From positions 1 through 34,460 of the IMG/VR virus record IMGVR_UViG_3300010396_000033: a DNA stretch of 34,460 nucleotides. The stretch is one strand, 5' to 3'. Below, piece by piece: positions 1,376-28,475 of this stretch. A program made the translations under genes and the position numbers. Origin of the DNA: a virus. Under the pieces are notes generated by a model. It saw only the letters and a list, made by a program, of their open reading frames with translations. It had not been told where the DNA came from and searched no databases. Each line of letters opens with the position of its first letter. The first letter of the stretch is position 1.

Positions 1376-2709
1376 TGGTTCACGTTTCAACACCAAGACC
1401 AAGTTTAGGAGAAGCGTTAGGTAATGCTATTGGCGGATTAGGTGGGCAAATTGCTGGTCAAGAATATAATCGATCTAGAACAAGACAAGATATAGATAGA
1501 CTTAGACAAAATTCTCAAAATGCTTCCCCACTCGATTTAGCGTTTAATCTTACTGAAGCTATGGCATTAAATCCAGCTATCGCAAGGGGCATAGGTCCTT
1601 TAGCACAAACATTATTGCCGATGATGAGAGCAAATAAAATGTTTCCTGAAGGTGGGCAATCAGGAATGCAAAATCAACCTCCAGGACAAATAAGCCAAGG
1701 AATGGACCTATCAACAGGCGCTCAAAATGCTCCAGGTCAAGCACAAAATCAACCAATTCAAGGCGAAGCAAATCCTCAGCCACCTACTACTTCAGGTGTT
1801 TTACCAAGGATAATGCCTGCAGAAGAAATCCAGGCCCTTTCAGAAAGAGCAGCTAGAGAAATGGGTGATCCAAATGCTGCAATTACATATCAAAACTATT
1901 ACAACAACCAAAATCAAATCGCTCAACAGGCGAGACAGGCAGCAGAACAAAAGGCAGCTTCGCTAGGTGTTACTCCTGATGAAATACCTGAATTCTTGCA
2001 AGTTGGACAACAATTTGGATATGAAAAAGATCTCGATAAATGGGCTTTGAAAACACAACAAGCTTGGGATACCTATAAGAATGCGAAGACAAAATTAGAT
2101 AATGCTGATATTCCTGGATGGTTTAGAGGTTTAAGAGAAGGACCAAAAGCAAGAGAAACCTCTTTAAAAAGACTTGAAGGAACTGTTCAAGATCTAGTTA
2201 AATCAGGATTCGAAAATCAAACAAGAAATAAACTTGCTTCTGAAGGATTAAGTCCAACAGAAATTGAAGGTTTAATTTTCCCAATGGGAACTCAAATACA
2301 AAAGGCGTTAGATAAATTTCCAAAAGGAACATTTCCAAAAGAAGAACCGGCCGGAAAAGAAGGCTATCTTAATACAAAACAGCCAACTTTTATAAGTTAT
2401 GAAGAAGCCCTCGAAAAAGCTCCAAAAGAAATGGAAGTAATGCAAAATAGATTGTCTAATTTCTTTAAAAATAACGTTAATCCAGATACATCCTTGTTAG
2501 TTTTAAGACATCAATTATGGAATGATAAGGATTATGATTGGAGACAAATAGGACCAGCTGTAAGAGATGCGGTTCAAAAAGGTCTTAAATTATCTCCAAA
2601 ACAACAAACAGAACTCACAGAACTAGAAACACAACCACCTAGACAATCAATCGCTGATGTATTTAAAGGGTATGGGAGATGGATAGATTTAATTAGAGGT
2701 AATAAATGA
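1375..2709 (+). CDS. Probable DNA-ejection / internal virion protein
   Basis: Product of 444 residues. The first 30 residues are Gly-rich (SLGEALGNAIGGLGGQIAG), a pattern that may insert into membranes. About residues 95-145 form a Gln/Pro/Asn-rich low-complexity linker, followed by long charged helical stretches to the end. The start overlaps the previous stop by one base behind a GGAGG site in the preceding gene's tail, and the stop overlaps the next ATG (TAAATGA), so three consecutive genes (839, 1375, 2706) are coupled. This three-gene set resembles the gp7/gp20/gp16 ejection block of P22-like phages in position and character. I cannot show homology by eye. Confidence 0.6.
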   Translation: MVHVSTPRPSLGEALGNAIGGLGGQIAGQEYNRSRTRQDIDRLRQNSQNASPLDLAFNLTEAMALNPAIARGIGPLAQTLLPMMRANKMFPEGGQSGMQNQPPGQISQGMDLSTGAQNAPGQAQNQPIQGEANPQPPTTSGVLPRIMPAEEIQALSERAAREMGDPNAAITYQNYYNNQNQIAQQARQAAEQKAASLGVTPDEIPEFLQVGQQFGYEKDLDKWALKTQQAWDTYKNAKTKLDNADIPGWFRGLREGPKARETSLKRLEGTVQDLVKSGFENQTRNKLASEGLSPTEIEGLIFPMGTQIQKALDKFPKGTFPKEEPAGKEGYLNTKQPTFISYEEALEKAPKEMEVMQNRLSNFFKNNVNPDTSLLVLRHQLWNDKDYDWRQIGPAVRDAVQKGLKLSPKQQTELTELETQPPRQSIADVFKGYGRWIDLIRGNK

Positions 2710-4157
2710 ATCCTATTGCTCAGGGTATGGCACTTGGATATACCGGAAATCAATTATTATCTTTTCTCACTAAAATGATTCCGTCAATTGCTCCAAGAGT
2801 TGAAAAAGCAATAAGTCAGGGTCATTCCATTGAAAGCATAATTAATTTCATTGGAAAAACAATGGAATCTGATTCATTTCCAAAGAATATGACCCAACAA
2901 CAAATTCATGGTAAAAATACCAAAAAACAAGATGAGTTGACTAAGGGTATTCTGAAGATAGGCTCTTCGTTAGTTTTAGGAGGCCTAGGAGCAAAAGCAT
3001 TGTCACGAGCGTTACCACAGTCCATCCAATCACTAATCCCTGGTCTTGAGAAGGAAGTCTTGACAGAAGAGAGCAAATCTCAATTGCTCCATGACCAACA
3101 AGCCATAAAGGGGCCATCATTAGGGAATACAATATCATCAAACCAAACGCAACAACTGCCTTCTTCATCTCCAAATCCTCCAGTTTCAGCGATTATAACA
3201 CAAAATGCCCCTACAATTCAACCTGAAGTAAAAACTATACAATTACCTGAAACTTTACAGAAACAAGCATCAGCTCTTTTAGAAGCAGGAAATACTCCAG
3301 AGCAAATTGAAGCAGTTATAAAATCTACTCAATCAAAAATAGTCAATGAATATGAAAAAGCAACAAATACACCTATTAGAACAGCAATCGAAGATTTTAT
3401 TAAAAAAGTACCTATTAAAGAAATACAGGAACAACCTTCAATTTCACAGAAGCCTGCAATACAGAAACCAACCAGTTCTGAAGTATTGCGTCCAGTAGAA
3501 GAAAAACCAAAAATAGAAGAAAGAAAAACAGTAGCTCTTCCTAACGGAGATATAGGCGAAATCACGAATATTCGCCAAGATATTGCCACCGTTAATGCGA
3601 ATGGAAAGGAATATCGAAGAAAAGTCGATGAATTAATCGAATCTCCATTACCACACAAAGAACTTTCCGACTTGTACAATGATCTTGTCAAAGGAATAGA
3701 AAAAGAAACAGGTCAGCAAGTTTCTAGAGCTGTCAATTATGTAGGATTTAATCCTGAAGAAAAATCTCTTGTTGTTCATTATGCTACTCCTGGAGCTGAT
3801 ACATATGTATTTAATGACTTGAGTGAAAATAGAGTTAAACAACTTATGGGATTAGAGCAATTAAGAAGAGGAAGCGGGGAAAATTATATAGGAGCTTTCG
3901 AGCAAGGATCTAAATCTGTATTGGGGAGTAAATTACATGATTTGGTCAAAGAGTTAGAAAAAGAACGTGGCGGAAAAGGGAAGGCTCACGAATTTACGTA
4001 CAAGACATTATACGATGCTTTAGAGCCTGGAAAGAAAGCAGCACATGAAAGACATAAAGAAAAACAAGTTGAAGCATCTCGATTGAAGAAAGAAGAAAAA
4101 AATAAGGAAAAGAAAAATGTCAAAAAAAGAAAAGCCCAAAAGCCAAGACTTGATTAA
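2706..4157 (+). CDS. Large internal virion / ejection protein with a KTSC-like domain
   Basis: Product of 483 residues. The N-terminus is hydrophobic and helical, with a glycine-rich membrane-like stretch near residues 80-100 (SSLVLGGLGAKALSRAL). The middle is a Pro/Gln/Thr linker. Residues about 345-400 (VGFNPEEKSLVVHYATPG ... YVFNDLSENRVKQLM ... GSGENYI) resemble the KTSC domain, a small fold found in lysyl-tRNA synthetases and many phage proteins. The C-terminus is extremely Lys/Glu rich and probably binds DNA or forms a coiled coil. It is the last gene before a promoter-bearing gap, so it ends the ejection operon. The KTSC call is moderate and the overall role is inferred. Confidence 0.6.
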   Translation: MNPIAQGMALGYTGNQLLSFLTKMIPSIAPRVEKAISQGHSIESIINFIGKTMESDSFPKNMTQQQIHGKNTKKQDELTKGILKIGSSLVLGGLGAKALSRALPQSIQSLIPGLEKEVLTEESKSQLLHDQQAIKGPSLGNTISSNQTQQLPSSSPNPPVSAIITQNAPTIQPEVKTIQLPETLQKQASALLEAGNTPEQIEAVIKSTQSKIVNEYEKATNTPIRTAIEDFIKKVPIKEIQEQPSISQKPAIQKPTSSEVLRPVEEKPKIEERKTVALPNGDIGEITNIRQDIATVNANGKEYRRKVDELIESPLPHKELSDLYNDLVKGIEKETGQQVSRAVNYVGFNPEEKSLVVHYATPGADTYVFNDLSENRVKQLMGLEQLRRGSGENYIGAFEQGSKSVLGSKLHDLVKELEKERGGKGKAHEFTYKTLYDALEPGKKAAHERHKEKQVEASRLKKEEKNKEKKNVKKRKAQKPRLD

Positions 4158-4310
4158 ACTTCTTTTTTTATTAAAGAATATGGGAAAAAAATCACCTAAT
4201 AAAAAGTAAACAATTTGTTACAAATGTCATATTTCCACAATTAAAGTAAATATGAGTCTAACATTAGAAAGATGTGTTAGATTTTTTGAAAAATTCACAC
4301 CAATTGATTT

Positions 4311-4339
4311 TTGTACACTTTTCATATGTTAAATAAAAT
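4311..4339 (+). promoter_or_regulatory. Sigma70-like promoter before the fibre genes
   Basis: TTGTAC at 4311-4316 and TAAAAT at 4334-4339 are separated by 17 bp. This lies in the 268-bp gap 4158-4425, which otherwise holds A/T-rich sequence and two short hairpins. It would drive the fibre cluster starting at 4426. Confidence 0.55.
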
Positions 4340-4347
4340 TTATATTT

Positions 4348-4425
4348 GATATGGTGACGTTACGAGCATATCAATAGGTATGGCCGAAACTGAAATAAAC
4401 CTATCTCTATCAGAGTGAGGTATCT
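4348..4425 (+). promoter_or_regulatory. Structured 5' leader of the first fibre gene
   Basis: Two hairpins follow the promoter: GATATG 4348-4353 with CATATC 4367-4372, and ATAGGT 4374-4379 with ACCTAT 4399-4404. GAGG at 4417-4420 is five bases from the ATG. The hairpins could stabilise the message or tune initiation; no known riboswitch pattern is recognised. Confidence 0.4.
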
Positions 4426-5247
4426 ATGAGCGGTAAATCGCCTCTTGGCAATTCCAAAGAATCAGGTTCTTATGAAGGAACAATCGCACAATTTCCTATT
4501 TCTGGATTTGATGTAATCAAAGCAAAAACTGATCCTGGAACAAATAAAAAGTTTCCAGTGACTTCAATTTGGGTTAATACCTTAGCAGGAACTGTTTGGA
4601 TTCAAGTTCAACCAGGTGTTTGGATTGCATTAGGAAGCGGTTCAGGAAACGTTTTAAGTGTAATAGGAACGGCAAACCAAATTGCATCAGCTCCTACAAC
4701 TGGTAATGTCATTCTTTCTTTGCCTCTTGCAATTATAGCTCCGGGTTCATTAACTACCACTACAACGCTTACAGGCGGAACAGGTATTACGGCAACTACG
4801 GGCAATATTACCGCTTCAGCAGGTAACGTTTCAGCTTCTGGCTCTGTAACAGGGGGAACTGGTGTTACGGCTACAACTGGAAATGTCACAGCAACAGCAG
4901 GCGCTGTAAATGCTGGAACATCTATGACAGCGACACTTGGAAATATTACAGCTACAAATGGTAATTTAGTTTTGAATGGAGCTGGAAATAAATTAGTGAT
5001 TCATGCTAGCACTGCCGCTTCCGATTCAGTAGGAACATCAGCAGCATTAGATGGTGCATCTCCTTCTCAATTAGTAGTTTCGACAACCGCAGTATCAGCA
5101 GCTTCTAAAATATTCTTGACAATTAATACCCCTGCTGGAACTCCTGGATTCCTTTCTGTAGGTACAATTGTTCCGGGTGTAAGCTTTCAAATTAAATCAT
5201 CTGCAAATGGTGATACTTCTACAGTTAATTATTTAATCATTAATTAA
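4426..5247 (+). CDS. Tail fibre protein with Thr/Gly beta-repeats
   Basis: Product of 273 residues. The N-terminus (residues about 1-70, containing FPVTSIWVNTLAGTVW and a later PGVWIAL) is a probable particle-anchoring domain and resembles the N-terminus of the 7844 product (YPLASLWSNSTNGNLW). Residues about 110-190 are tandem imperfect repeats of the type GGTGITATTGNITA, a pattern of trimeric beta-helical fibre shafts. The C-terminal 80 residues form a Ser/Thr/Ala-rich tip. It is the first gene behind the promoter at 4311 and has a good ribosome site. Tail fibre is a strong inference from composition; the receptor is unknown. Confidence 0.75.
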   Translation: MSGKSPLGNSKESGSYEGTIAQFPISGFDVIKAKTDPGTNKKFPVTSIWVNTLAGTVWIQVQPGVWIALGSGSGNVLSVIGTANQIASAPTTGNVILSLPLAIIAPGSLTTTTTLTGGTGITATTGNITASAGNVSASGSVTGGTGVTATTGNVTATAGAVNAGTSMTATLGNITATNGNLVLNGAGNKLVIHASTAASDSVGTSAALDGASPSQLVVSTTAVSAASKIFLTINTPAGTPGFLSVGTIVPGVSFQIKSSANGDTSTVNYLIIN

Positions 5248-5469: not shown

Positions 5470-5871
5470 ATGTCAAAAATTAAACAAGGTATAAATGTTA
5501 TTTGTCAAGCGTGTAAGAATGAATTCTATGTTGCTAAGTATAGAAGCGAAACTGCTAGATTTTGTAGTTTACATTGTCAAAATCACAGGCAATATGAAAG
5601 GTTCAAATTTAAATGCAAGCAGTGCGGAAAAGAATGTGAATCATCTCCTTGTAGAAAAGGGAAAAAAAGTTTTTGTTCTCTAGTATGTAGCAATGAATTT
5701 CAGATAGATAGAAAAAACTGTAATCGAGAAGTTTGTGGATATATGGAATATGAATGTTGTTTAGATATTCATCATAAAGATAAAGATCCAAACAATAATT
5801 CATTAGAAAATTTGAAAGTTGTATGTGTAATGTGTCATAGGAAAATACACAGAAAAATTATAAATTTTTAG
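5470..5871 (+). CDS. HNH endonuclease with zinc-binding Cys clusters (free-standing homing type)
   Basis: Product of 133 residues. Three Cys-x2-Cys type clusters (CQACKNEF, CSLHC, CKQCGKEC then CSLVC) precede a C-terminal HNH core: LDIHHKDKDPNNNSLENLKVVC gives paired His, then Asn and Leu of the beta-beta-alpha-metal motif, and VMCHRKIH supplies the last His. The length and layout fit phage HNH nucleases with N-terminal zinc ribbons. It sits alone between structural genes, which is usual for mobile free-standing HNH genes. The codons of its last residues lie in the 39-bp direct repeat described below, a mark of local duplication, perhaps from its insertion. Confidence 0.85.
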   Translation: MSKIKQGINVICQACKNEFYVAKYRSETARFCSLHCQNHRQYERFKFKCKQCGKECESSPCRKGKKSFCSLVCSNEFQIDRKNCNREVCGYMEYECCLDIHHKDKDPNNNSLENLKVVCVMCHRKIHRKIINF

Positions 5872-11756: not shown

Positions 11757-12014
11757 TTAATTTCCTTTATTTTCATGTTCATATAGTAAATCCACGGCTT
11801 TTGATATCAATGCAGATTTATCAGGTTTTCCCTTCTCTAATATTTTCTTAGAACAAATCTCATTAAGTTTTTTGATAGATTCAATAGTTAGATAAACTGT
11901 TAATTTTGCTTTTTTCGGTGTTTCGGTTTTTACCTCTTTCGGTATTTCTGTCTTGTAATCATTAAGTGATAGTCTATTTCCAATTGACTTAGCTGCTTTA
12001 TCAACGTTATCCAT
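11757..12014 (-). CDS. Ribbon-helix-helix-like partner of ParA (ParB/CopG-type)
   Basis: Product of 85 residues: a polar Lys/Glu/Pro-rich N-terminal half, then [18 protein letters not shown] ... [17 protein letters not shown], which has the beta-strand, helix, helix layout of ribbon-helix-helix DNA-binding proteins. The start overlaps the 3' end of the parA-like gene by eight bases, and GAGAGG precedes the ATG. Small RHH proteins encoded right after a ParA ATPase (as ParG, Omega or CopG types) bind the centromere and stimulate the ATPase, so this is the likely centromere-binding partner. Confidence 0.7.
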
Positions 12015-12786
12015 GTTTCCTCTCTATAACTTCTGTTGTAAGATTTTTATAAGCTTCAGCACCCTTTGATTCAGGAGCATAGTCAAATATAGACTTTCCA
12101 TTAGCTTGAGCTTCATTAAGCTTTATGTTTTGCGGTATTGTCGTCTTGTATAACTTGCGGTCAAAAAGTTTTGCCAGTACATCGTTAATTTGTCTTGCTA
12201 ACTTAGATCTCAAATCATAGAAAGTTATGACTACTCCAGATATTTCAACTTCATGATTCACGACGGAACCGATATCTCTATTAATAAAAGAAATAGCCTC
12301 TAGAAAATTATCGATTCCTTCCAAACTAAAATAACCGAGTTGGACGGGCATAATAATTTCTTTTGCTGTTAGGAATGTATTAATGGTTAAATTTCCAAAA
12401 GTGGGGGGAGTATCAAATATAATATAATCATATTTTAGATAAGATAGTTTTTTTCTTAACCTGAATTCTTTTGCTCCAACAGTACTTAGTTTCATTTCTG
12501 CAACTGCAAGAGATAAATCTGAAGGAAGGATATCTAAATTTTGTATGTAGGTTTTCTGGATTACATATTCTGCTTGAAGTGATTCATCACATAATATATC
12601 CGCTACTGTGTATTTTTTTTCTGTAGAAATTCCTAATCCTTTAGTTGAATGACCTTGAGGATCGACATCTACCAGTAAAACTTTATTACCGCATACCGCT
12701 AATCCAGCAGCTAAGTTAATAGACGTTGTAGATTTACCCACACCACCTTTTTGATTTGCAACTGCTATCGTCCTCATATACCTCAT
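12007..12786 (-). CDS. parA: ParA-family partition ATPase
   Basis: Product of 259 residues. The deviant Walker A motif KGGVGKST is at residues 13-20, the A' motif [15 protein letters not shown] near 38-52, and Walker [15 protein letters not shown] near 120. The length is that of small (type Ib-like) ParA proteins without an N-terminal HTH. These ATPases segregate plasmids, and in phages they mark genomes that persist as plasmid prophages (P1-, N15-like lifestyles). It is followed by an overlapping RHH-like gene, and a promoter with an inverted repeat lies just upstream. Initiation could also be at the internal ATG 12777 (MRTIAV), which has GAGG close by. Confidence 0.93.
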
Positions 12787-26663: not shown

Positions 26664-28475
26664 ATGACAATTACTACAAGTAACGCATTGCCACCGCCTA
26701 ACCTTTGATATGGGCGGTATAAACTTTGGGTAATTGACTTGGAAGTCCTCACTTATCTAAGAAGGATAACAAGGCGGAAGATGACACGCATAATCAATAA
26801 AACTAAATGGAAAAAGATTAAGAAAGATTATCAAAGAGTGATGCAAACGATGACTCTTGATGAATGTAATGGCGTTGTATTTGTTATGCAACATTACCGT
26901 AAACGACTAAATCCCGAAGGCGTTTTAAACGCATGTGATAGTCTGAACCTAATCGAAAGATTGGGAGGATAGTTGAAGCGCTATCCCGCCAGTTGTACGA
27001 TAAAATCGTACAATTGGTCATAAAGTAACAGAAAGGTACAACAGTGGTTTGACAATGTGTTGTTAAGCAGGCCAATGCCTAAGCTTATACACAAGCAAAT
27101 GGCTATGAAGAAAGAGTTACCTCCTAATTCAGGCCGTATTGCTCGCTATCGTCGTTATACGAATTTAGCGACCGCAACAGTTCCACTTCCTGATTCTGGT
27201 TTGACTCCTCCAGGTCAAATCTTAAATGCTGTGGATATTGACGCAAGACTTGATTTTTACGGTAATGAAGGGGAGCTCCTAAAAGCAGCTTAAAAGTGCC
27301 GTAAATGGTTGATGCCCATTGACTTATGTAACTATTACAGATTCTGTAATGTTCATCAACCAAGATCCTAAACTTTATGGGATCTTTAAATCTCTGGTAA
27401 TTGACTTGGAAGCCCTAGGAAATAGATGAAGCGAGTAATAAATAAGACTAAGTGGAAAAAGATTAAGAAGAATTATCAAAGGATTACGCAAAGCGTATTT
27501 CTAGATGAGGAAGAAGGTTTTATTTATGTATGGCATCATTATCAATTGAAGACTAAAGAAGGGTGACAAGGGGCAAGATTATGCAAGATATTACAAGCAT
27601 TGATAGATTTACTAATAGGGAAACACAAATCTTAAATGGATTACTCCATAGATGGGAACCTAAAAAAGAATCATTTGATGAATTCTGTAATAAAATATTT
27701 AATAATCAGCCTGATCGACTAAGTCCAGAGACCCGCAAGGGAAGCGATAGTCAGATCCGCGACCATAAATAAAATCGCGGAGGGAAGTTGAAGAGCTTCC
27801 CCGCCATGGTAACATGGTCACAAAAGTAACAGATTGGTATTGAATCAAACAGTTTCCCTCTTAGCGCAATCTATGAGAGAAACAGAAGACGAATTAATTC
27901 GTAATATGTTGGCCTCTACCGCTTCCGTAATCAACTGTACTGGAGGGGTTAATGGCGACAATCCTACCGAATTATCTCGCAGCGATATTGACGCTACAAT
28001 CTTAGCATTGCTCGGTAACGATGCAATCATGATCAGCGATAATATCGAGGGTACACTGAAGTTTGGTACAGCTCCAGTTCGTGAAGCGTTCTGGGGTATG
28101 ATGAATACTGCTATTCTTGATGATTTAGAAGCTGTAACAGGTTTCATTTCTCAAGCGCAATATCCATCTAATATGAATGTGTTGAATGCTGAATGGGGTT
28201 CTGTTTCAAATATCCGTTTCTTGTACAGCTCGAAAGGGTCTGTTACACCTAACGCATCTTTGAATGGTAATAATATTTATAATATTTTTGTTACAGGACA
28301 AGAAGCCTATGCGATGATTGAGCTTACCAATGCAACGGCAAGCTTTATTTACACGCCTCCAGGAGGTCCAACAGATCCTCTACGTAGGTTGCAACTTGGA
28401 GCTTGGAAAATGGCGCAAGTACCTCGAATCTTAAATGACGCTTGGATTTTCAATCTACGCGCTACACATTCATAG
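26664..28475 (+). CDS. Major capsid protein, N4-gp56 family, split gene with three interruptions
   Basis: Exons: 26664-26699 (12 codons), 27036-27263 (76), 27322-27369 (16) and 27837-28475 (212 plus stop), all phase 0, giving 316 residues. The joined product reads MTITTSNALPPP-VQQWFDNVLLSRPMPKLI ... LDFYG-TYVTITDSVMFINQDP-VLNQTVSLLAQ, then RETEDELIRNML, and ends PRILNDAWIFNLRATHS. This is the order of an N4-gp56-type coat protein (HK97 fold). Each piece alone looks broken, and each junction restores the expected family text. The interruptions are 336, 58 and 467 nt. Splicing is inferred from RNA pairings and the protein; it has not been observed. Confidence 0.88.
26700..27035 (+). ncRNA. Group I intron 1 in the major capsid gene
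   Basis: P1: exon ACCGCCT, ending at 26699, pairs with GGGCGGT at 26712-26718, with the last exon U on the first G, as group I introns need. P10: exon GTA at 27036 pairs with TAT just before the guide. The P element GGTAATTGACTTGGAAG (26729-26745) is identical in the third interruption. P7: GACTA (26905-26909) with TAGTC (26939-26943), flanked by the typical R text ACGACTAAATCCC and S text GATAGTCTGAACC. Three hairpins follow (GAAA-loop P9, GGATAG/CTATCC with loop TTGAAG, and a 9-bp stem), then the terminal G 27035. A 63-codon ORF lies inside. Confidence 0.88.
26781..26972 (+). CDS. Intron 1-encoded small basic protein
   Basis: Product of 63 residues from ATG 26781, with AGGCGG just upstream (a longer start at 26739 is possible). 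The N-terminus RIINKTKWKKIKKDYQRV matches RVINKTKWKKIKKNYQRI of the third interruption's first ORF. The rest is QTMTLDECNGVVFVMQHYRK and so on. It overlaps the catalytic core (P7 and P8 lie in its 3' end). No LAGLIDADG, GIY-YIG, HNH or Vsr motif is present. It may be a novel intron-helper protein, a truncated homing enzyme, or a shrunken remnant. Confidence 0.55.
   Translation: MTRIINKTKWKKIKKDYQRVMQTMTLDECNGVVFVMQHYRKRLNPEGVLNACDSLNLIERLGG
27036..27263 (+). CDS. Major capsid exon 2
   Basis: Encodes VQQWFDNVLLSRPMPKLIHK through ARLDFYG, the N-terminal arm and early domain of the N4-gp56 fold (pattern RYRRYTNLATATVPL then GLTPPGQ). In the unspliced text the frame runs on from GGT 27263 into NEGELLKAA and a TAA at 27291, so without removal of the 58-nt segment the product would be cut short. 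Confidence 0.85.
27264..27321 (+). ncRNA. 58-nt core-less intron-like segment in the capsid gene
   Basis: It lies between codons for FYG and TYV, which are adjacent in the protein family. P1: exon TTTACGGT (27256-27263) pairs in 8 bp with GCCGTAAA (27298-27305), with a U-G pair at the cut site. P10: exon ACTT (27322-27325) pairs with AAGT (27294-27297) directly before the guide. The last base is G (27321), as group I introns require. It has no core. A helix GGTTGATG (27307-27314) with CATCAACC (27354-27361) joins it to the next P1. It contains a stop and shifts the frame, so it must be removed, skipped or bypassed. Confidence 0.7.
27426..27566 (+). CDS. First ORF of the second full intron, small basic protein
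   Basis: Product of 46 residues (MKRVINKTKWKKIKKNYQRI ... YVWHHYQLKTKEG). It is a clear paralogue of the intron 1 product over its first 20 residues and shares the later spacing to an HYxxK patch (HHYQLK against QHYRKR), but ends earlier. No known endonuclease motif. Two related ORFs kept in two related introns argue for a real protein. Confidence 0.5.
   Translation: MKRVINKTKWKKIKKNYQRITQSVFLDEEEGFIYVWHHYQLKTKEG
27581..27772 (+). CDS. Second ORF of the second full intron
   Basis: Product of 63 residues from ATG 27581, with GGGG upstream (a GTG start at 27563 overlapping the first ORF is also possible). It is helical, MQDITSIDRFTNRETQILNG then LLHRWEPKKESFDEFCNK, and its last 20 codons run through P7 and P8 of the ribozyme. 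Intron 1 has no copy, which explains most of the length difference between the introns. The function is unknown. Confidence 0.45.
   Translation: MQDITSIDRFTNRETQILNGLLHRWEPKKESFDEFCNKIFNNQPDRLSPETRKGSDSQIRDHK
27837..28475 (+). CDS. Major capsid exon 4 (main part)
   Basis: Encodes 212 residues from VLNQTVSLLAQ to the TAG stop. A TTG at 27834 could serve as a start if this part were translated alone, but it lies in the intron's last bases. The family text includes TASVINCTGGVNGDNPTE, ALLGNDAIMISDNIEG, FGTAPVREAFWGMM, FISQAQYPSNMNVLNAEWG and the C-terminal VPRILNDAWIFNLRAT. Confidence 0.9.
   Translation, partial: VLNQTVSLLAQSMRETEDELIRNMLASTASVINCTGGVNGDNPTELSRSDIDATILALLGNDAIMISDNIEGTLKFGTAPVREAFWGMMNTAILDDLEAVTGFISQAQYPSNMNVLNAEWGSVSNIRFLYSSKGSVTPNASLNGNNIYNIFVTGQEAYAMIELTNATASFIYTPPGGPTDPLRRLQLGAWKMAQVPRILNDAWIFNLRATHS

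Follow-up and report, generated by a model that had tools for sequence, protein, structure and literature searches.

How can a gene that is interrupted by a segment too short to hold a ribozyme core still yield an intact protein? The question is raised by an IMG/VR virus contig, analysed here as a window of 34,460 nt, in which the major capsid gene is broken by a 58-nt insert at positions 27264-27321. Using sequence comparison, folding and profile searches, we found that the insert carries the pairings that mark group I splice sites, and that homologous inserts of 40-65 nt occupy the same codon in 22 other contigs. That the insert is a core-less intron, removed from the RNA, is well supported by these comparisons. 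Furthermore, we put at about 80% the probability that this mini-intron is a non-autonomous group I intron that is excised by the core of a neighbouring intron.

The 58-nt insert and its pairings

The split gene was identified by its match to phrog_1357 (major head protein, E=3e-30). It lies on the plus strand, as do all of its features described below, and comprises four exons: 26664-26699 (MTITTSNALPPP) and 27036-27263 (ending ...DFYG), placed by homology to uninterrupted relatives and by tblastn with alignment, respectively; 27322-27369 (TYVTITDSVMFINQDP), which is 48 nt long, in frame and encodes protein conserved in uninterrupted relatives; and 27837-28475, placed by tblastn. The three gaps between them are two full introns, 26700-27035 (intron 1) and 27370-27836 (intron 2), and the 58-nt segment. 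With the joined capsid protein as query we retrieved 60 relatives from the viral collection, mostly with uninterrupted genes, and a search of genome contigs gave one uninterrupted relative. At the junction the uninterrupted relatives read FYG-TYV or close variants, as does the joined frame in the window; this agrees with the junction that an initial annotation of the DNA had predicted from the protein, and fixes the edge of the insert at a codon boundary. Therefore, exactly 27264-27321 must be removed from the RNA or hopped over by the ribosome.

Both ends of the insert bear group I splice-site marks. The end of exon 2 (27256-27263; TTTACGGT = UUUACGGU) forms the 5' strand of a P1 helix with an internal guide at 27298-27305 (GCCGTAAA = GCCGUAAA), over 8 bp and with a U.G pair at the splice site. 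Directly before this guide, AAGU (27294-27297) pairs as P10 with ACUU, the first four bases of exon 3 (27322-27325), and the final base of the insert is G27321. The initial annotation had claimed P1, P10 and the terminal G, and the sequence agrees with it on each. It had also described an 8-bp helix leading to the next intron. This helix, here called PX, exists, but its length is really 9 bp, formed by 27306-27314 (TGGTTGATG = UGGUUGAUG) and 27354-27362 (CATCAACCA = CAUCAACCA), and it is flush with both P1 helices. On its 3' side PX abuts the P1 of intron 2, in which 27362-27369 (AAGAUCCU) pairs with a guide sequence at 27379-27386 (GGGAUCUU); base 27362 can pair in either helix. Minimum-energy folding of 27256-27386, run with no constraints, returned P1(mini), PX and P1(intron 2) consecutively and flush, with an energy of -41.3 kcal/mol compared to a mean of -24.6 for shuffled sequences (z=-4.76; 0/200 shuffles as low).

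Recurrence and covariation among relatives

An insert of 40-65 nt was present at the same capsid codon in 23 contigs, the window included. Those of L036 (56 nt) and L052 (59 nt) were found first, and two DNA pattern scans added 20 contigs, most with far more distant capsid proteins (~57-64% identity where measured). The scan patterns fixed parts of P1, two P10 pairs, the terminal G and a 3' exon consensus, and nothing on the sequence beyond; the mini loci retrieved in this way are not a random sample. Capsid insertions with P1 and P10 only, which the initial annotation had suggested looking for in relatives, are thus on record in 22 further contigs, with the same architecture and with compensatory changes. 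Insert lengths occupy all three classes modulo 3, as expected for a segment that is removed from RNA, and 85 distinct relative genes are uninterrupted at the mini codon. A strict scan for P1, P10 and PX together, run on 462 loci (3.9 Mb), found this architecture plus a recognisable core solely at the capsid site. Among the matches listed by a scan for minis with a TAT exon (ATGGT...GCCATA), none was used as a mini. Three further relatives vary the pattern. L060 has a full-length intron exactly at the mini site (4270-5000), with a 5' end similar to that of the minis, and its sequence makes it a plausible ancestral state of them; L039 has a full-length intron a few bases upstream of the site (~2453-3190); and L457 (11137-11188) is a near copy of L373 in which the insert is one base shorter, so that the unspliced frame passes an Ala-Ala stop considered below.

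P1 is 6-9 bp long across all loci, and each of the 19 rows counted has U.G, a feature that the search pattern fixed in part, and every insert closes with a G, also fixed by the pattern, exactly where the protein puts the junction. P1 tracks the Phe codon, TTT occurring with GUAA and TTC with GUAG, with two mismatches. The free pair of P10, between the guide and the wobble base of the Thr codon (any of T, C, A and G), is complementary in 22 of the 23 loci, as C-G in eight, A-U in six, G-C in six and U-A in two, and mismatched in L394. On a tree of exon 2 from the mini loci, which is short and weakly resolved, the exon base of this pair changed at least 10 times and the guide base likewise at least 10 times. 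Altogether the covariation of P1 and P10, the protein-exact junction, the insert lengths free in three frames and the recurrence in 23 contigs support removal of the insert from the RNA.

PX was found in 22 loci, where the stretch behind the guide pairs over about 8 bp or more (8-10) with exon sequence that ends 0-3 nt before the next P1. When pairs were counted in 19 rows, 97.7% of cells were paired compared to 76.3% after shuffling, all 8 counted PX pairs had changes on both sides, and pairing fell to 36-43% when the partners were offset by 1-3 columns. The insert half of PX had been placed by best fit, and two further controls, partner swap and unconstrained folding, were therefore run. The PX score was 20.8 with the own partner and 10.4 with partners swapped between loci, and minimum-energy folds recovered P1(mini), PX and P1(intron 2) in 21/22. 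Synonymous recoding of exon 3 alone gave per-locus p values for PX of 0.02-0.24, which are modest singly and strong together. Furthermore, PX shifts with the neighbouring intron: this intron follows QDP in the window, L036, L067, L372, L390, L405 and L446, lies two bases later in L052 and sits in the Val codon of [D/E]xV in L101, L107, L149 and others, and PX moves along. In L412 a further full intron is interposed; there the PX pairing reaches across it to an 8-nt partner (GTTCTGTA/TACAGAAC) that lies next to the QDP intron. Exon 3 of the window, L036, L052 and L067, which combine a mini with a QDP-type intron 2, also contains hairpins, the sequences of which differ (ATTACAG-ATT-CTGTAAT; ATCACT-GATCA-AGTGAT; CCTGTT-GAATG-AACAGG).

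The downstream intron as a candidate core donor

The inserts are mostly taken up by the guide, PX and a hairpin, with no room for a core, as the initial annotation had said of the window; the 40-nt minis leave ~18 nt beyond guide and PX. A catalytic core, P3-P8 with the guanosine site in P7, cannot be accommodated at such lengths. However, a second intron follows in 23 of the 23 contigs, across an exon of at most 51 nt, compared to 3 of the 85 uninterrupted relatives (Fisher p 1.4e-20). The scans made no demand for such an intron, and no mini lacking one was found among the 23 loci. Several subfamilies are represented among the downstream introns, whose lengths run from ~200 to ~950 nt. In the window, intron 2 is a full group I intron ending GTAACAGATTG/GTA, the core of which consists of P3 (27391-27397/27725-27731), P7 (27717-27721/27748-27752) and P8 (27732-27741). 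The P7-P3-P8-P7 arrangement was recognised in 19 of the 23 downstream introns and is spelled out for the window and L067; the core in L413 was judged by eye. Among the remaining introns, those of L101 and L380 run off their contigs and that of L394 matches Rfam group I (E=4e-5). At its gathering threshold Rfam gave no match anywhere in the window, and at a relaxed threshold it gave a weak group I match (RF00028, E=0.32) in intron 1 alone and, among the mini loci, a match in L394 alone. LAGLIDADG-like open reading frames (ORFs; AGIIDGEG or similar) are present in the introns behind the minis of L373, L394 and L461 in sense and of L371 in antisense orientation, and mini, exon 3 and intron could thereby travel together by homing.

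Comparison across the loci establishes the splice sites, P1, P10, PX and the constant linkage to a downstream intron, and from these we infer the splicing itself, its chemistry, the role of the intron 2 core and the order of events. The insert would have kept its splice-site marks (P1 with U.G, P10 and terminal G) and lost its catalytic core, which would be supplied by the full group I intron that begins 48 nt further on. PX would set the mini P1 beside the P1 of intron 2 in an unbroken chain, P1(mini)-PX-P1(intron 2), with few or no unpaired bases, so that either P1 could enter the same active site. In the first step guanosine would attack after 27263, and in the second the freed end of exon 2 would attack after G27321, guided by P10; intron 2 would splice at 27369/27837 in the usual group I manner. 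A further helix between the insert ends, PT, is significant overall (combined p 2e-7 with relatedness ignored) and may help to bring the terminal G of the mini into the core. The suggestion of the initial annotation that a neighbouring core serves the core-less intron, in cis or in trans, is supported by the 23/23 downstream introns and by PX abutting the neighbour's P1.

Excised intron 2 may also act while still held on exon 3, and the mini is probably not removed before it. Engineered group I cores can take splice sites in trans (PMC4094466). In Tetrahymena-based trans-excision ribozymes and spliceozymes one group I core relies on P1 and P10 to cut out a foreign internal segment and ligate the flanking RNA, as proposed here, but these systems are artificial and keep the guide in the ribozyme (PMC4094466), whereas here the guide is part of the mini, which has a helix of its own for docking. 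A natural spliceozyme, in which intron 2 first excises itself, stays on exon 3 through its guide and the flush PX and then removes the mini, is a tentative proposal to which we give somewhat less than even odds.

The order of removal can be approached through the ends of unspliced products. Translation of all minis showed that the unspliced capsid frame stops inside the insert, after Ala-Ala in 17 of the 23 and after Val-Ala in two (19/23 together); these include the window, where GCA GCT TAA lies in the capsid frame at 27285-27293, and L036, L052, L067, L149, L390 and L405. Other full introns of the same genes give such ends in 16 of 18 cases, among them L040, L049, L059, L193, L196, L198 and L202, with DLELLAA, DLELLVA, DWLKAA or, in L049, GKQENALAA before the stop; ELLKAA, DLELLAA and QENALAA, each followed by a stop, are examples of unspliced ends inside introns. 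In contrast, the introns that come immediately after a mini, 23 in all with the window intron 27370-27836 included, never have an Ala-Ala or Val-Ala end (0/23 vs 16/18, p 1.5e-9). We take these ends to resemble the ssrA degradation tag, and they possibly represent an intron-encoded, ssrA-like tag on truncated capsid protein; a literature search found no paper on intron-encoded ssrA-like ends. If they are tags, their absence behind minis implies that transcripts that have lost the mini but kept intron 2 are presumably rare, and hence that removal of the mini accompanies or follows that of intron 2. This gives an indirect lead that the mini is not removed before intron 2, which would be closer to the excised-intron option.

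Intron 1 (26700-27035) is also of full group I type, and its 3' end was set by the protein of relatives (PPP/VQQWFDN). It contains a small ORF (26739-26972), for which a PHROG search gave no match; a related ORF (NKTKWKKIKKxYQR...) lies in intron 2 at ~27427-27567. Elsewhere in the window, a ParA-like ATPase gene (12007-12786, minus strand) recalls plasmid-like prophages, and a gene for an HNH endonuclease (5470-5871) lies among structural genes.

Alternatives and implications

Several points weigh against excision by the neighbouring core. The loci are related, so that the counts are of non-independent events, and most of P1, two P10 pairs and the terminal G were fixed by the scan patterns, so that their invariance is no evidence. 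PT is moderately supported, being weak or absent in several loci and 3 bp long in the window. Finally, fungal introns of similar size and with like pairings were reported to splice without a known partner, which makes a core-independent route possible (PMC3160393).

One such route would be an autonomous minimal ribozyme: insert and adjoining exon would together form a very small, self-sufficient active site resembling that of group I, a claim that has been made for the 67-nt small-subunit (SSU) rRNA intron of Phialophora. The small SSU rRNA introns of Phialophora, Arthonia and Porpidia (PaSSU type) are 63-78 nt long and share with the mini a P1 with G.U, P10, a pairing between mid-intron and 3' exon (PM) and the absence of an ordinary core, and one was reported to splice in vitro (PMC3160393). 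However, they reside in fungal rRNA genes, end in omega-U, are drawn with a P7 of their own and are reported to splice without a partner (PMC3160393), whereas the minis reside in a phage capsid gene, all end in G, and always have a downstream intron, with PX directed toward its P1. The combination of an own P7 and terminal U of the PaSSU type was not found in the minis, in which a P7-like hairpin was not scored separately and the 40-nt members leave little room. An autonomous ribozyme would need neither the close downstream intron seen in 23/23 nor a PX flush with its P1 wherever this is sited, and it would have to fit the shortest minis into the ~18 nt beyond guide and PX. We consider it unlikely.

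Alternatively, a protein or another RNA could provide catalysis, with intron 2 merely linked, as suspected for degenerate lichen introns, which are said to require host machinery (PMC8527467), and for the group III introns of Euglena chloroplasts (PMC4424553). The latter resemble the mini in being short relics (~90-120 nt) whose catalytic domain is gone and which depend on an external core; they differ in deriving from group II introns and in that their trans core is not identified, whereas the features of the mini are those of group I and its likely donor lies 48 nt away (PMC4424553). The small ORFs in the window introns could be read in favour of such a catalyst. However, the ~200-nt downstream introns of L067, L390 and L052 leave little room for an ORF, the downstream introns are of several subfamilies, and PX is aimed at the neighbour's P1, all of which makes this explanation quite improbable.

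Exon skipping would join the 5' site of the mini to the 3' site of intron 2, so that mini, exon 3 and intron 2 are lost together. Such skipping is known for paired group I introns of phage Twort orf142 and Coxiella 23S rRNA, which affect each other across a short exon (cited in PMC10136302), and exon 3, at 48 nt and in frame, would permit it. In those tandems neither intron lacks a core and the exon between them is skipped (cited in PMC10136302), whereas here one intron is core-less and the exon kept. The P10 guide fits exon 3 and not exon 4, with covariation, and the protein of exon 3 is conserved; we reject exon skipping as very unlikely. In T4 gene 60, ribosomes hop over a bypass gap, and the length and in-frame stop of the insert are like those of gene 60 gaps. 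However, translational bypass predicts neither the P10 nor the PX covariation; the insert closes with the codon ATG, AAG, TTG, GTG or ACG, none of them a Gly codon to match GGT at take-off, and the stop comes 13-34 nt into the insert in all except the frame-shifted L457, so that bypass is rejected as highly improbable. A decayed intron in a dead capsid gene, with an origin by core deletion made plausible by the full-length intron at the same codon in L060, or a wrongly joined contig, the error for which the initial annotation had allowed, is equally hard to credit and is rejected, since 23 contigs share the insert with compensatory changes and intact exons.

Excision by the core of the neighbouring intron thus remains our preferred reading. 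The self-splicing introns of Bastillevirinae phages show a similar layout, with several group I introns per gene and small exons between them; the portion of that work consulted makes no mention of a core-less intron (PMC11878797). Our literature search, which left most subscription journals outside its scope and may have missed a precedent, found no core-less group I intron docked on a neighbouring group I intron. To our knowledge, natural group I introns carry their own core, save small fungal rRNA introns of unclear mechanism.

In this capsid gene, two introns of one transcript appear to share splice-site signals and a catalytic core out between them, joined by a dedicated, covarying docking helix. 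Among group II introns, self-splicing gave way to dependent introns and the spliceosome, and the arrangement would be the group I equivalent of that transition. Donor and substrate fit into ~0.6 kb, which makes it testable in vitro. It also indicates that phage genes can hide introns of 40-65 nt that are invisible to covariance models; the Rfam group I model is silent in the window at its own threshold, and intact genes may therefore be annotated as broken. If the proposed mechanism is true, an excised group I intron would act as the splicing factor of a dependent intron, one core serving two introns.
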